A model generated the notes under the pieces. The model ran no database searches, was not told the origin of the DNA, and saw nothing but the letters and a program-made list of their open reading frames with translations. From contig NZ_JACHXV010000004.1 in the NCBI RefSeq assembly GCF_014192375.1, positions 124,001-188,000 on the forward strand: 64,000 nucleotides of DNA, given 5' to 3'. This stretch comes from Endobacter medicaginis. GTDB lineage: Bacteria > Pseudomonadota > Alphaproteobacteria > Acetobacterales > Acetobacteraceae. Positions 27,014-32,147 of this stretch are shown one piece after another (the first letter of the stretch is position 1; each line of letters opens with the position of its first letter). A program made the position numbers and the translations under genes.

Positions 27014-27790
27014 TCAGCCCTCGATCCGCGCATGCGCGCCGGCTTCGCCAAGACGCCAGTAGCCGGCGGCATGGACACGTGCGCGCGGGATCTGGCGTTC
27101 CTCGACCAGATGGCTGCGCAGGCGGCGGGCAGTGTCGATCTCGGTGGCGATCCAGATCTCGCCTGCGAGCAGCGGCGCGTCGAGCGATTCGATTGCCTGG
27201 TCGAGCAGGCGGGTGCAACCCGGCGCGGCGGCGCGGCGGTGGCGCCACAGGAGATGCAGCCCGGCAGGGGTGGAGAGCGGCAGTTCGGCAGCCTCGTCGG
27301 CAATCTCGATGATCGCGGTCACAGAGGTTCCGAGCGGCAGTTCCTCGAGCCGGCGCGCGATCGACGGCAGGGCGGTCTCGTCGCCGATCAGCAGCCAGCG
27401 GTCGGTGGGCGGCACCGGGCGGGAGCCGCGCGGGCCGCCTATCGACAGGCGCTGGCCGATCCGCGCCGCTTCGGCCCAGGCCGAGGCCGGCCCGGCATGC
27501 CGGTGCAGGACGAAATCGATCGTCAGCTCACCGCGCACCGCATCGAAGCGGCGCGGCGTATAATCGCGCGCCACGCTCTCGCCCTCCGGCGTGTCGAAGA
27601 ACAGCTTCACATGGTCATCCGGGGCGAGGGAGGTGAAGCCCTCCATCTCCGGACCGCCGAAGACGATCCGGCGCATCGCCGGACTGATCGTCTTCACGGC
27701 CACCACCTCGCCGGTCCGGCGCGGAACACCTGCACGCGGAGCGGCCAGGCCGCCTACGCCTCGCGGGCTCGCGGGAAACAGCGCGCTCAC
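27014..27790 (-). CDS. Siderophore-interacting protein / ferric-chelate reductase (YqjH/ViuB family)
   Basis: A cytoplasmic NAD(P)H-dependent flavoprotein of 258 residues that reduces iron(III) in imported siderophores. The FAD-binding domain comes first, with the RDYTPRRFD motif near residue 97, and the SIP domain second, with LIGDETALPSIARRLE and a C-terminal Trp/Arg-rich end (HAAGYWRLGEAGAHAR). The start is a GTG that overlaps the stop of the PadR gene (GTGA), so both are made from one transcript. This copies the E. coli yqjI-yqjH pairing, in which the PadR protein represses the reductase. Confidence 0.88.
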   Translation of the reverse strand: MSALFPASPRGVGGLAAPRAGVPRRTGEVVAVKTISPAMRRIVFGGPEMEGFTSLAPDDHVKLFFDTPEGESVARDYTPRRFDAVRGELTIDFVLHRHAGPASAWAEAARIGQRLSIGGPRGSRPVPPTDRWLLIGDETALPSIARRLEELPLGTSVTAIIEIADEAAELPLSTPAGLHLLWRHRRAAAPGCTRLLDQAIESLDAPLLAGEIWIATEIDTARRLRSHLVEERQIPRARVHAAGYWRLGEAGAHARIEG

Positions 27791-28503
27791 CGCTCGCTCT
27801 CCGGCGTCGGACGGAGGATCTGCCGCGTGGCCTCGTCGAGGATGCGGGCAATCCGCCGCGCCTCGTCAGGAGCAGCCCCCCGGGCGCGGATCAGTGCCGA
27901 TTTGAGCGCGTGACGGGCACGGTGGAGCTCCTCCGCGGCGGCGGGATCGGCGTCGCCCACCCCGCTGAACGCCTCGCGGACCGCCTCCATCCGCCCACCG
28001 ATGCGGTCGAGAAAGCCGAAGATCGCCTCGACCTCCTGGCGGCCGGCATCGAGATGCGCCCGACCCGCGCCGGTGATGGTGTAGAGCTTGCGATTGCCCT
28101 CGGCGGTCGCCTCCGCGAGCCCGGTCTCGTCGAGGAAGGTGAGCGCCGGATAGACCATGCCGGGGCTCGGCGCATAGAAGCCGCCGGAGCGCTGCTCCAG
28201 CTCCCGGATCAGCTCGTAGCCATGGGCAGGCGCCGATTCCAGCAGGGCCAGCAGCAGCAGCTGGAGCTGGGCGCTGGTGAACTTTCGCGCGGCGATGTGC
28301 TCGCCGAAACCGGCGGTGAAGTCACGGCCGAAGCGACGGCCGAACCGTCCGCCGCGGCGCCCGTCGCCACGCGGGTCATCATCGCGACCGCGCGGTGGAC
28401 CGCCATCGCGCCCGCGGTCGGGGCCGCCGTGGCTGGCCCAGCGGGCGAAGGCATCGAATTGACGCTCGAAGGCATCGTGGATGGGCTCGCGTCTGAAACG
28501 CAT
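27787..28503 (-). CDS. PadR family repressor (YqjI-like)
   Basis: A 238-residue regulator. The first 65 residues are a Gly/Arg/Asp-rich linker (PDRGRDGGPPRGRDDDPRGD). Next comes a PadR winged helix (about 70-150) with LALLESAPAHGYELIRELEQ and YAPSPGMVYPALTFLDETG, and a C-terminal helical dimer arm. E. coli YqjI has a His/Cys-rich nickel-binding N terminus; here that region has almost no His and no Cys. The ATG at 28503 was preferred to the one at 28524, because it has GGAG eight bases upstream and because 28524 falls inside the palindromic operator. Autoregulation is therefore very likely. Confidence 0.88.
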   Translation of the reverse strand: MRFRREPIHDAFERQFDAFARWASHGGPDRGRDGGPPRGRDDDPRGDGRRGGRFGRRFGRDFTAGFGEHIAARKFTSAQLQLLLLALLESAPAHGYELIRELEQRSGGFYAPSPGMVYPALTFLDETGLAEATAEGNRKLYTITGAGRAHLDAGRQEVEAIFGFLDRIGGRMEAVREAFSGVGDADPAAAEELHRARHALKSALIRARGAAPDEARRIARILDEATRQILRPTPESER

Positions 28504-28514
28504 CGCATTTACTC

Positions 28515-28545
28515 CGTAAGACATGTCTTACGATATGTTTTGCGA
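28515..28545 (-). promoter_or_regulatory. Palindromic operator and promoter of the padR-SIP operon
   Basis: CGTAAGACATGTCTTACG (28515-28532) is a perfect 18-base palindrome. A degenerate copy of its right part follows in tandem: ATATGTTTTGCGA at 28533-28545 matches ACATGTCTTACGA at 10 of 13 positions with a 12-base period. On the minus strand TTGCAA (28554-28559) and an AT-rich TATCGT-like -10 lie just upstream, so a bound repressor would cover the start of transcription and the ribosome site. Confidence 0.7.
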
Positions 28546-28580
28546 TAGATGAGTTGCAAGCGAAATCGGCACACGCCCCC

Positions 28581-29183
28581 TCACCCGACCTGTGGCGCCA
28601 CGCGGCGCAGCCGGCCCGTCAGCCGCGCCCGCAACCGGCCGAGCCGCGCCACCCCCGCGAGACGGCGGTCGAGGAACTCCATCGTCGCCTCGCCGCCACT
28701 CATGTCCGACAGCCAGAACAGCAATGTGGCACTCCACACTGCCGCGAGGATGGCGCGCTTGGTGTACCAGGAGAAATCCGCCGAGGTGTCGCCGGCCGCA
28801 TGCCAGATCGAATCAACCGTGCGCGCGGTGATCCGCGCCGTCGCGCGCGCATGGAGGGGGAGTGCGAGGATCGCCAGGGCCCGGCGGATCGCCTCGCGCT
28901 CGCCGGCCGCCTGGTCCAGCCGCAGTCCGATCAGCGCACGGATACGCTGGGTCAGCCCGGCGGTGCGGCCGGCGAAAAGGGCACGAGCGGCCGTCTCCAT
29001 GCGGCGATCGGCATAGTCGACATAGGCCTCGACGAGGTCGATGGTGCCGCCGGGAAACAGCAGGTCGGCATCCGCTCCGGCGGCCTCGCGCAGATTGGCG
29101 ATCGTCCAGCCGCCGAAGGCGATGGCCGGCAGCACGGCCTCGATGGCTGCATCACGTTCGGCGCTGCGTTCGATCGGCGGCAT
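28581..29183 (-). CDS. COQ9 family protein
   Basis: A 200-residue helical protein of the COQ9 family. In eukaryotes COQ9 is a TetR-fold lipid-binding protein that assists COQ7 in ubiquinone synthesis; alphaproteobacterial members are presumed to act likewise. Family marks are AIEAVLPAIAFGGWTIANLREAA (TetR-like helices without a DNA-reading helix), FPGGTIDLVEAYVDYADRRM and the C-terminal SWYTKRAILAAVWSATLLFW, which matches the lipid-contact region. ATG 29183 has AGGAAA upstream. It follows def by 13 bases. Confidence 0.82.
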   Translation of the reverse strand: MPPIERSAERDAAIEAVLPAIAFGGWTIANLREAAGADADLLFPGGTIDLVEAYVDYADRRMETAARALFAGRTAGLTQRIRALIGLRLDQAAGEREAIRRALAILALPLHARATARITARTVDSIWHAAGDTSADFSWYTKRAILAAVWSATLLFWLSDMSGGEATMEFLDRRLAGVARLGRLRARLTGRLRRVAPQVG

Positions 29184-29196
29184 GCTCGTTTCCTTC

Positions 29197-29724
29197 TTAC
29201 ATCGGCCCGAACCGGGCCACCTCGTCCTCGAACCCCATCCGCGACGCGTCCTCCATCCTGGCCGGGTAGAGAATGCCGTCGAGGTGATCGTATTCGTGTT
29301 GCAGCACATTGGCGAGGAACCCGCCCGCCTCACCCTCGACGACTGCGCCGCTGCGGTCGACACCGCGATAGCGTACCCGTTCGGCGCGTGGCACCACCCC
29401 GCGCAGGCCCGGGATCGACAGGCAGCCTTCCAGCCGTCCCACCCGTGACTCGCCCAGCAGTTCGAGTTCCGGATTGATCAGGACCCCAGCCTCGACCGGC
29501 GGATCACCCTCGCCGGCGCTGCGTTCGGCGGGCACGCGATAGACAAACAGACGCAGCGAGCGATGCACCTGGGGTGCGGCGAGCCCCACCCCTCGCGCAT
29601 CCAGCATCGTCTCCAGCATGTCATCGACCAGCCGGGTAATTTCGGGATCGGTCGGATCGGTGACAGGATCGGCACGTCGCAGCAGCACCGGGTGGCCCAT
29701 GCGGGCGATTTTCAGCAAGGCCAT
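29197..29724 (-). CDS. def: Peptide deformylase
   Basis: Removes the N-formyl group from new proteins; a metal enzyme, usually iron-dependent. The three motifs are complete: GVGLAAPQ (45-52), EGCLSIPG with metal ligand Cys101, and QHEYDHLDG with His143, Glu144 and His147. At 175 residues it has normal length. There is no fmt gene next to it; instead a COQ9-like gene follows, so this may be a second deformylase in the genome or an unlinked def. The upstream neighbour rpsU is divergent. Confidence 0.95.
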
Positions 29725-29820
29725 GCGGACCAGTCTAGCGTCTCTCCGGCCCAGGCCAAAACACCCTGACGCGGAGGACAGAGCTCACCGCGCCCCGCCG
29801 GTCGGCCATGCGCAAAAGGC

Positions 29821-29850
29821 TTGGAGAATCGCAAACCGGCATGTTATACG
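29821..29850 (+). promoter_or_regulatory. Candidate rpsU promoter
   Basis: TTGGAG at 29821-29826 and TTATACG at 29844-29850, with 17 bases between, about 115 bases before rpsU. It is the only AT-rich -10-like element in the gap 29725-29962; the rest of that gap shows no gene. Confidence 0.4.
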
Positions 29851-29962
29851 CCGCGCTCCTTGGCGGACTGGCCTGGGGCGCACAGACACATGCGCCCGAT
29901 GCTGTGGCCGCAAAACCGAAAGAGTTCGTCGCGCGAGCGCGCGACCAGGAGATGACGGCCCA

Positions 29963-30166
29963 GTGCAGGTTCTCGTTCGCGACAACAATGTCGACCAGGC
30001 GCTCAAGGCGCTGAAGAAGAAGATGCAGCGCGAAGGAGTGTTTCGCGAGATGAAGCTGCGTCGCCACTACGAGAAGCCCTCCGAGCGCAAGGCGCGCGAG
30101 GCGGCCGAGGCCGTGCGCCGTGCGCGCAAGATGGAGCGCAAGCGCATCGAGCGCGAGGGGTTCTAA
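29963..30166 (+). CDS. rpsU: 30S ribosomal protein S21
   Basis: A 67-residue basic protein of the small subunit, needed for efficient initiation on canonical mRNAs. It begins [20 protein letters not shown] after a GTG start at 29963, and ends [13 protein letters not shown], the usual Arg/Lys-rich tail. AGGAGA about ten bases upstream supports the GTG; longer in-frame extensions have no ribosome site and do not fit the family length. It is monocistronic and followed by a strong terminator. Confidence 0.95.
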
Positions 30167-30224
30167 AAACCTCTCCGCGTGGGGCCTGCGGGCCTCGCGG
30201 CTTGACGCCGAGGACGGATACGAG

Positions 30225-30261
30225 AAACCGGAGCTTCCCAGCGGGGGGCTCCGGTTTTTTT
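30225..30261 (+). terminator. Intrinsic terminator of rpsU
   Basis: AAACCGGAGC and GCTCCGGTTT form a 10-pair stem around a 13-base loop, followed by a run of T (seven in all). It lies 60 bases after the rpsU stop and before the convergent guaD gene. Confidence 0.85.
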
Positions 30262-30285
30262 GCGGCCGGCCGATCCGTGCCGCCG

Positions 30286-31584
30286 TCAGTGCCGGGCCAC
30301 CCGTCGACCGCCAACGATGGTTTCGGCCACGGCGCGGTCGTCTCCCATCGTCATCAGCATGAACAGCGTCTCGTCGAGGTCACGCATCGGCCGGTCGGCG
30401 CGATGCGCCATTGCCGGGGTGGCGCGAGGGTCGAGCACGACCAGATCGGCGGCCAGACCCGGCGCGATCCGGCCGATCTCGCCCGCCAGACCCAGCGCCT
30501 CCGCATTGCCGCGCGTCATCAGCCGAAACGCCGCCCGCGCCGGCCAGCTCTGCCCCTGGAGCTGGAGGATCTTGTAGGCCTCCGCGGCGGTGCGCAGCAT
30601 CGAGTAGTCGGTGCCGCCGCCGATATCGGTGGCCAGCGACAACCTGACCCCCGCCGCGCGCATCCGGGCGAGATCGAACAGCCCTGAGCCGAGAAAGAGG
30701 TTCGAAGTCGGGCAGAACACCGCCACCGAGCGCCGCCGCGCGATCACGTCGAGCTCGCGATCCGACAGATGGATGCAATGCCCGAGCAGGGTGCGCTCGG
30801 TGAGAAGACCGTGCCGGTCATAGATGTCGGTATAGTCGCGCGCCTCAGGATAAAGACCGCAGGCGGTGGCGATCTCGGCGTGGTTCTCGCTCAGATGCGT
30901 CTGCACCCAGCATTCCGGATGCGCGCGCACCAGTGCCGCGCTCGCTTCGAGCTGGGCGGGGGTGGAGGTGATCGCGAAACGCGGCGTGATCGCGTAGCCG
31001 GCCCTGCCCTGCCCGTGCCATCGCGACAGCAGGGCGACACTCTCGGCCGCCCCCGTCTGCGCCGTATCACACAGCTCGGGCGGCGCGTTGCGGTCCATCA
31101 TCGTCTTGCCGGAAATCAGCCGCATCCCGCGCGATGCCGCCGCGGCGAACAGTGCGTCCGCCGCAGCGGCATGCACCGACGAATAGGCGCACACGCTGGT
31201 GGTGCCGTTGCGGAGCAGTTCATCGAGAAAGAAGCCGGCCAATGTGGCGGCATGGGCCGGGTCGGCGGCACGGGCTTCCTCGGGAAACACGTAGCCGCCC
31301 AGCCAGTCCAGCAACTGCTTGCCATAGGAGCCGATCACCTGGGTCTGTACATAATGCGCATGGGTATCGATGAAGCCCGGCAGGATCAGCCGGCCGCGAT
31401 GATCGAGCGTCTCGATGCCCGGATGGGCGTCCAGCAGTGCTGCCGGTCCCACCGCGGCGATGCGGCCACGCGACACCACCACCGCGCCGTCGTCGAACAC
31501 CGTCGGGGTGTCGTCTTCGGCATCGAAGCTGACGATGCAGCCGCGCAGGGCGTAGCTGTCGGGCGGGGTCGGTTCGGCGGGCAT
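30286..31584 (-). CDS. guaD: Guanine deaminase
   Basis: Deaminates guanine to xanthine, an entry step of purine catabolism. The 432-residue amidohydrolase has the zinc ligands His75 and His77 in FIDTHAHYVQTQ, a further His in THLSENHAEI, the HCIHLSD segment and the late Asp in ATDIGGGTDYSM. GKTMMDRNAPP and CPTSNLFLGSG are specific to guanine deaminases. The C-terminal part includes LFMLMTMGDDRAVAETIVGG. It is divergent from uraD with only 41 bases between the coding regions, so the two purine genes are probably co-regulated. Confidence 0.93.
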   Translation of the reverse strand: MPAEPTPPDSYALRGCIVSFDAEDDTPTVFDDGAVVVSRGRIAAVGPAALLDAHPGIETLDHRGRLILPGFIDTHAHYVQTQVIGSYGKQLLDWLGGYVFPEEARAADPAHAATLAGFFLDELLRNGTTSVCAYSSVHAAAADALFAAAASRGMRLISGKTMMDRNAPPELCDTAQTGAAESVALLSRWHGQGRAGYAITPRFAITSTPAQLEASAALVRAHPECWVQTHLSENHAEIATACGLYPEARDYTDIYDRHGLLTERTLLGHCIHLSDRELDVIARRRSVAVFCPTSNLFLGSGLFDLARMRAAGVRLSLATDIGGGTDYSMLRTAAEAYKILQLQGQSWPARAAFRLMTRGNAEALGLAGEIGRIAPGLAADLVVLDPRATPAMAHRADRPMRDLDETLFMLMTMGDDRAVAETIVGGRRVARH

Positions 31585-31625
31585 CCGGCCAAACTAGCCT
31601 CTCGCCAGCACCGCCGAGAAGGTCC

Positions 31626-32147
31626 ATGCTCCATTGCATGAGCGATCCGGTCATCGACGCGCTGAACAGTGGCACAGAGGCGGAATTCGTCGCCCGGCTC
31701 GGTGCGGTCTACGAGCACTCGCCCTGGATCGCCGAAGCCGCCTGGGCGAAGCGGCCGTTCCGGGACCGCGACGACCTCGCCCGCCGCATGCAGGACGTGC
31801 TGATGCAGGCGCCGCGCGCGCAACAGGATCAGGTGATCCGCGCGCATCCCGATCTCGGCGGCCGGCTGGCACGCGCGGGCGTGCTGACGCCGCATTCGCG
31901 CGACGAGCAGGCCTCGCTCGGCCTCGATCACCTCGCCAGCGAGGATTACGACCGGCTCGACCAGTTCAACCGCGACTATGCGCAGAAATTCGGCTTTCCG
32001 TTCATCGCTGCCCTGCGCGACCACAGCCTCGGCAGCCTGATCGACTCGATGTCGCGGCGCGTCAGCAACACGCCCGACGAGGAACATGCGGCCGCCCTGT
32101 TCCAGATCGGGCGCATCGCCTGGTACCGCATCAACGACCTGCGCTGA
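31626..32147 (+). CDS. uraD: 2-oxo-4-hydroxy-4-carboxy-5-ureidoimidazoline decarboxylase
   Basis: Third step of the urate-to-allantoin route: decarboxylates OHCU to S-allantoin. The 173-residue helical protein has the catalytic His74 in IRAHPDLGG, EHSPWIAEAAW near residues 30-40 and a C-terminal RIAWYRINDLR with the substrate arginine region. The start is uncertain. ATG 31626 is three bases after GAGAAGG, while ATG 31638 (MSDPVIDAL) fits the family N terminus but is far from that ribosome site. Partner genes for urate oxidase and HIU hydrolase are not in the window. Confidence 0.9.
   Translation: MLHCMSDPVIDALNSGTEAEFVARLGAVYEHSPWIAEAAWAKRPFRDRDDLARRMQDVLMQAPRAQQDQVIRAHPDLGGRLARAGVLTPHSRDEQASLGLDHLASEDYDRLDQFNRDYAQKFGFPFIAALRDHSLGSLIDSMSRRVSNTPDEEHAAALFQIGRIAWYRINDLR

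Follow-up and report, generated by a model that had tools for sequence, protein, structure and literature searches.

A candidate autoregulatory PadR operator that overlaps the promoter, and possibly the start codon, of a padR-ferric reductase gene pair in Endobacter medicaginis

Introduction

The 64,000-base stretch of the Endobacter medicaginis genome analysed here (the window) contains an 18-bp perfect palindrome at the head of a gene for a PadR-family repressor, which in turn overlaps a gene for a siderophore-interacting ferric reductase. The arrangement raises the questions of whether the palindrome is an operator, which regulator would bind it, and how it is placed with respect to the promoter and the start codon of padR. 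A pair of similar proteins is known from E. coli, where NfeR (YqjI) represses nfeF (yqjH), and the sections of PMC7981267 that deal with this system also describe an 85-fold increase in nfeF upon deletion of nfeR in Klebsiella and report relief of NfeR repression by excess nickel in E. coli. An earlier note on this DNA, made from the sequence alone, had drawn the parallel to YqjI and had proposed a repressor operator before padR, a proposal that the conservation described below makes probable.

Results

The padR gene (PF03551, winged-helix repressor; E 7.6e-18 for the domain match) occupies positions 27787–28524 of the minus strand and encodes 245 amino acids if read from 28524 or 238 if read from 28503. 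Its end shares four bases (GTGA) with the gene for the siderophore-interacting FAD ferric reductase, SIP (27014–27790, minus strand; PF08021 and PF04954). The genome holds a single PadR match and a single SIP match, the latter being the only PF08021 protein found. The N-terminal tail of the window PadR is rich in Gly and Arg and contains three His in 82 residues; it has no Cys, nor does the rest of the protein. A structure model of the 245-residue form, built with 19 relatives, is confident and PadR-like for most residues from about 84 onward, whereas residues 1–76 mostly have a pLDDT below 50. The closest structural matches of the model are PadR/LmrR-type proteins, and the predicted PadR fold is the feature that the window protein has in common with LmrR.

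Upstream of padR, 56 bases from a start at 28524 or 77 bases from one at 28503, lies a COQ9-family gene (28581–29183, minus strand) that carries the NCBIfam name diverge_rpsU. The region 28581–30166 also includes a peptide deformylase gene on the minus strand, and a small Lys/Arg-rich open reading frame on the plus strand, ending at 30166, resembles ribosomal protein S21 by eye. Farther on, an amidohydrolase-family gene (30286–31584, minus strand) adjoins a gene for an OHCU decarboxylase (31626–32147, plus strand), which suggests a purine/urate degradation cluster at 30286–32147.

The palindrome CGTAAGACATGTCTTACG, at 28515–28532 and with no strand of its own, is symmetric at 18/18 bases, as the earlier note had it, and is composed of head-to-head half-sites AAGACA|TGTCTT that we propose as the operator dyad. 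Even with up to three mismatches allowed, the complete 3.63-Mb genome has a single copy. Its length by itself was dropped as evidence, since perfect palindromes of at least 18 bases number 1.1 on average in first-order random sequences with the window's composition (40 sequences) and the window contains one. What does count is its position in the short gap before padR and the preservation of its core in relatives. The tandem copy described previously is also real, with its step of 12 bases, and the two 13-base stretches, ATGTCTTACGATA (28523–28535) and ATGTTTTGCGATA (28535–28547), are identical at 11/13 positions rather than 10/13.

Read along the minus strand, the window has three such units. 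The core unit, TATCGTAAGACA (28524–28535), matches the family core TATCTTAAGATA at 10/12 positions; a degenerate unit, TATCGCAAAACA (28536–28547), lies 12 bases upstream of it, within the promoter spacer, and a third, TGTCTTACGGAG (28512–28523), lies 12 bases past it and ends in a Shine-Dalgarno-like GGAG. The palindrome is the core and the downstream unit paired head-to-head.

Conservation was examined in two sets of loci: PadR relatives from genome contigs, and a family set in which 57/120 genomes matched and the 30 top places, including that of the window, were made into loci. A core was counted if it agreed with TATCTTAAGATA at 10 or more of 12 positions and lay at most 420 bases before the PadR domain. 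By this measure, a TATCTTAAGATA-like core precedes padR in 80/80 contig relatives (the best 80 of 87), with 0.34 expected from shuffles, and in 14/30 family loci (window included), with 0.22 expected. The consensus was read from these same loci, many of which are closely related to one another (95 distinct best-match stretches in 111 loci, with the window entered twice), so that the counts overstate independence. L003, L004, and L005 have the same operators as L038, L037, and L036, respectively, in the contig set.

The symmetry of the window palindrome is kept at a mean of 5.0/9 pairs in relatives, and the core's own symmetry averages 6.0/9 in one group and 6.8/9 in the other. Judged by these alignments, perfect symmetry is peculiar to the window and the core is the conserved part. 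The test named in the earlier note, a scan of relatives for the same palindrome upstream of padR-SIP pairs, thus finds the core unit but not the perfect symmetry. A search by genus returned the window's own genome only and gave no congeneric comparison.

The flanking units are less constant. For these counts, 83 loci with a TTG-anchored core were used, after exclusion of four duplicates, the 16 family loci with a more distant PadR, and eight that lacked such an anchor. Of the 29 loci in the window's group, 12 have a downstream unit that scores at least 9/12, as do 42 of the 54 others; it falls below this in 17 and 12, respectively. The upstream unit stands 12 bases away in 15 of the 83 loci (7 and 8 by group), 14 bases away in 39, and 15–17 bases away in 22, and seven loci have no unit at threshold; ties in spacing were settled toward 14. 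The varied step implies that a fixed helical phase is no general property, and a conserved 12-base phase was rejected as a candidate because only 15/83 loci have that step. The notion that two units lie on one helix face therefore does not extend to the family.

We assign the promoter to a -35-like TTGCAA (28554–28559) and a -10-like TATCGT (28530–28535), both on the minus strand and separated by 18 bases. The -35 element is a weak match, and a generic sigma-70 scan of 28300–30400 found no promoter; the call was made because relatives align. When these are aligned on the core, they have a TTG whose hexamer lies 17–19 bases before the core, followed mostly by TATCKT, and the window shares this geometry, which places the core at the -10 position wherever it can be anchored. 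The conserved core thus includes the -10-like TATCGT, whose last three bases are also covered by the palindrome, a putative overlap of operator and promoter. The palindrome had been described as lying between a -35/-10 pair and the padR start. That placement is wrong, as the palindrome overlaps the -10-like element and has an in-frame ATG on its axis; the overlap and the possible leaderless start within the palindrome both went unnoticed.

This ATG (28522–28524, minus strand) falls on the dyad axis five bases past the -10-like element. The window's group, in which its use was followed, comprises 31 non-duplicate loci (the window, L003–L015, L032–L035, and L039–L051) and is defined by rank in the hit list, not by taxonomy, such that L039 is labelled Acidobacteriaceae and L033 only Rhodospirillales. 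The axis ATG is in frame and open in 24/31 of these loci; it is out of frame or stopped in one, absent in four, and cannot be anchored in two. Among the 24, it is the sole possible start in five, a further 17 have no other start led by a Shine-Dalgarno motif, and two (the window and L011) do have one. With 22/24 in-frame loci lacking another Shine-Dalgarno-led start, the padR mRNA of the window's group is probably leaderless. Other lineages have an ATG at the operator position in 29/60 loci, in frame in 10 and out of frame or stopped in 19, and all 10 in-frame cases have a Shine-Dalgarno start elsewhere. The operator consensus thus often holds an ATG by itself, and it seems that this operator ATG became a start codon in the window's lineage.

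For the window itself the second start makes leaderlessness less certain than in its relatives. The ATG at 28501–28503 (minus strand) has GGAG (28515–28512) eight bases upstream, and it is a serious, if somewhat less than even, prospect that padR is translated only from there, with the same operator, a leader of about 21 bases, and an axis ATG that reflects operator consensus and nothing else. The GGAG, the Shine-Dalgarno starts of the other lineages, and the four loci of the window's group without an operator ATG (L007, L008, L009, and L012), whose ATG starts come with Shine-Dalgarno-like motifs, speak for this reading. Against it stand the frame, which is open from 28524, and the window's group, with its preponderance of in-frame axis ATGs, few other Shine-Dalgarno starts, and five loci with no other start at all. 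On balance, we moderately favour leaderless use of the ATG at 28524 in the window.

With a sequence profile built from 25 operators, the padR promoter is the sole match in the window's own genome at E ≤ 10, and the idea that the regulon here extends past padR-SIP was rejected for want of a second site. With strict filters and E ≤ 0.1, the profile matches 10 of the 120 family genomes, the window's own included, and every match in these 10 sits 11–343 bases before a padR match. Six of the 10 had contributed to the profile and four (G005, G012, G029, and G039) had not; four genomes that carry a core (G024, G036, G047, and G084) were missed by this search.

The core is also present in those 38 of the 80 loci in which tblastn detects no SIP within 700 bases after padR (a few of these contigs end soon after padR). 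The site thus follows padR even where SIP is not detected, which argues for autoregulation. Eight next open reading frames in SIP-less loci, picked by length and position, encode two MFS transporters, a flavodoxin-fold reductase, OmpW, an ABC transporter, an AraC-type regulator, an ornithine-cyclodeaminase-like protein, and an FAD oxidase. The frame after padR encodes an MFS transporter in L054 and L066 and a flavodoxin-fold/FMN reductase in L074, and this variety suggests that the PadR promoter may pair with different partner genes.

The PadR tails differ as well. With start codons assigned by rule, those of L054, L060, L070, and L074 are very His-rich (23–26 His in 109–121 residues), and those of the Devosia loci L091 and L098 have no His in 48 residues. 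As read from these sequences, the putative sensor tail is strongly variable within one operator family.

A second form of the site links the window to E. coli. The eight-base motif GATATATC occurs in 15/16 family loci that lack the core and encode a more distant PadR (0.1 expected), twice in the nfeF-nfeR spacer of E. coli, and also in 15/94 close loci. In L020, L028, and L031, SIP is present, a TATCTTAAGATA-like core is absent, and GATATATC is present. AAGAYA/TRTCTT and AGATA/TATCT thus seem to represent two variants of a single half-site. An E. coli-like form exists in the window's own family as well, at L025, which has two perfect AAGATATATCTT palindromes 18 bases apart (1327–1356) upstream of padR, and its PadR tail is His-rich (15 His in 59 residues).

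The window PadR is 40% identical to NfeR over 84 aa of the DNA-binding domain, and the window SIP is 34% identical to NfeF over 239 aa. Both systems combine a PadR-family repressor, a SIP ferric reductase, and head-to-head palindromic sites. In E. coli the two genes diverge from a spacer that contains two GATATATC sites, whereas those of the window are co-directional and overlapping, with one array. NfeR has an operator of the AGATATATCT type; the window operator contains no GATATATC but has the related AAGACA|TGTCTT, and TTAGATATATCTAA and TAAGACATGTCTTA, aligned on the axis by eye, agree at 10/14 positions. A possible start codon within the operator is a feature of the window and not of E. 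coli nfeR-nfeF.

The tails set the two proteins apart. In NfeR, the 58 residues before the winged helix include 12 His and 7 Cys, a His/Cys-rich N-terminal tail that has a role with metal, whereas the window PadR has only the three His and no Cys noted above. The absence of an E. coli-style tail makes nickel sensing by the window PadR doubtful, and with the divergent gene order missing too, we do not file the window unit as NfeR. The YqjI parallel of the earlier note holds for the related sites of the nfeF-nfeR spacer and should not be extended to metal sensing.

Discussion

Our preferred reading, which we hold with considerable confidence, is that PadR represses its own gene through this site, the operator of a padR-SIP operon akin to NfeR/YqjI. 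The sequence itself shows the palindrome, the half-site units, the conserved core and its single occurrence in the genome, the gene order, and the in-frame ATG; binding, repression, co-transcription, transcription start point, and signal are inferred. PadR dimers would bind AAGAYA/TRTCTT half-sites that extend from the promoter spacer through the -10 into the start of the transcript. Bound PadR would shut its own promoter and hence the overlapping, co-directional ferric reductase gene, and a signal, whether iron, a different metal, or a redox/flavin ligand, would release it, such that both proteins are made. Transcription would probably begin at the ATG on the palindrome axis; the mRNA would then lack a leader, and the operator, the transcription start, and the start codon would occupy the same bases. 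The finding of increased nfeF in the Klebsiella deletion strain and that of nickel relief in E. coli lend support to the NfeR parallel.

Other explanations of the palindrome fare less well. A terminator scan lists 28515–28532 on the plus strand, with the tail ATATGTTTTG, as an intrinsic terminator, a hairpin in RNA and not a protein site. The PadR, SIP, COQ9, and deformylase genes are all on the minus strand, however, so none reads into a plus-strand terminator, and no T run follows the palindrome on the minus strand. Moreover, the core sequence persists in relatives while the arms of the palindrome pair at a mean of only 5/9; the terminator was rejected because the arms are not complementary there, and we regard it as very improbable. 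That the palindrome is a functionless product of chance is the least credible reading of all: random windows hold about as many palindromes of this length and relatives do not keep the perfect symmetry, both in its favour, but the core is conserved at a constant place relative to promoter and gene, and for the core the sequence comparison already contradicts chance.

It is also unlikely, if less remote than these, that the site is the operator of a regulator other than the adjacent PadR. The core stands before padR with no detectable SIP and with other next genes (the eight neighbours), the genome has a single site, at padR, and the two forms of the site track closer and more distant PadR proteins, yet the 15/94 close loci that also hold GATATATC temper this last point.

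The proposed arrangement resembles that of the acuR-acuI-dddL operon of Rhodobacter sphaeroides, an alphaproteobacterial operon of autorepressor and enzyme with the repressor gene first. The acuR gene is leaderless and its inverted-repeat operator overlaps the promoter, an arrangement also reported in relatives (PMC3017554, in the part concerned with this promoter). According to the same part, AcuR is of the TetR family, responds to acrylate, and has the operator TAATAGAC-n6-GTCTATTA, and its leaderlessness was mapped by 5' RACE, whereas that of window padR is deduced from sequence. For a PadR autorepressor, several dimers have been proposed on its own promoter, as described in a section of PMC4534193. 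E. coli mRNAs including that of rcnR combine a 5'-terminal AUG with a Shine-Dalgarno-led start, and in the cases covered by the relevant section of PMC4965119 the first AUG begins an upstream reading frame of its own, unlike in the window, where both ATGs share one frame.

A search by eye of 28495–28560 did not reveal ATGT-N8-ACAT, the classical PadR operator motif. The open-licence literature yielded nothing on the combination of PadR, siderophore-interacting protein, and operator, and no title on a leaderless PadR arrangement appeared among the matches listed.

Our most speculative proposal, and one that we hold doubtful, is that in acetic acid bacteria and their kin the PadR operator, -10, transcription start, and start codon may form one fused 24-base element whose parts could not change independently, that both ATGs may give two PadR forms here, and that loss of the tail may go with a signal other than nickel.

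The window unit is a variant of a regulatory unit known from E. coli, and the second half-site form ties its site to those of NfeR. It offers a precise candidate operator, open to test, for a PadR subgroup that occurs in Acetobacteraceae, Burkholderiales, and other bacteria, and suggests that one type of autoregulatory promoter accompanies varied partner genes. Should padR prove leaderless, this would be a further alphaproteobacterial leaderless autorepressor operon, with a repressor family other than that of acuR, and an example of an ATG-containing operator that turned into a start codon.
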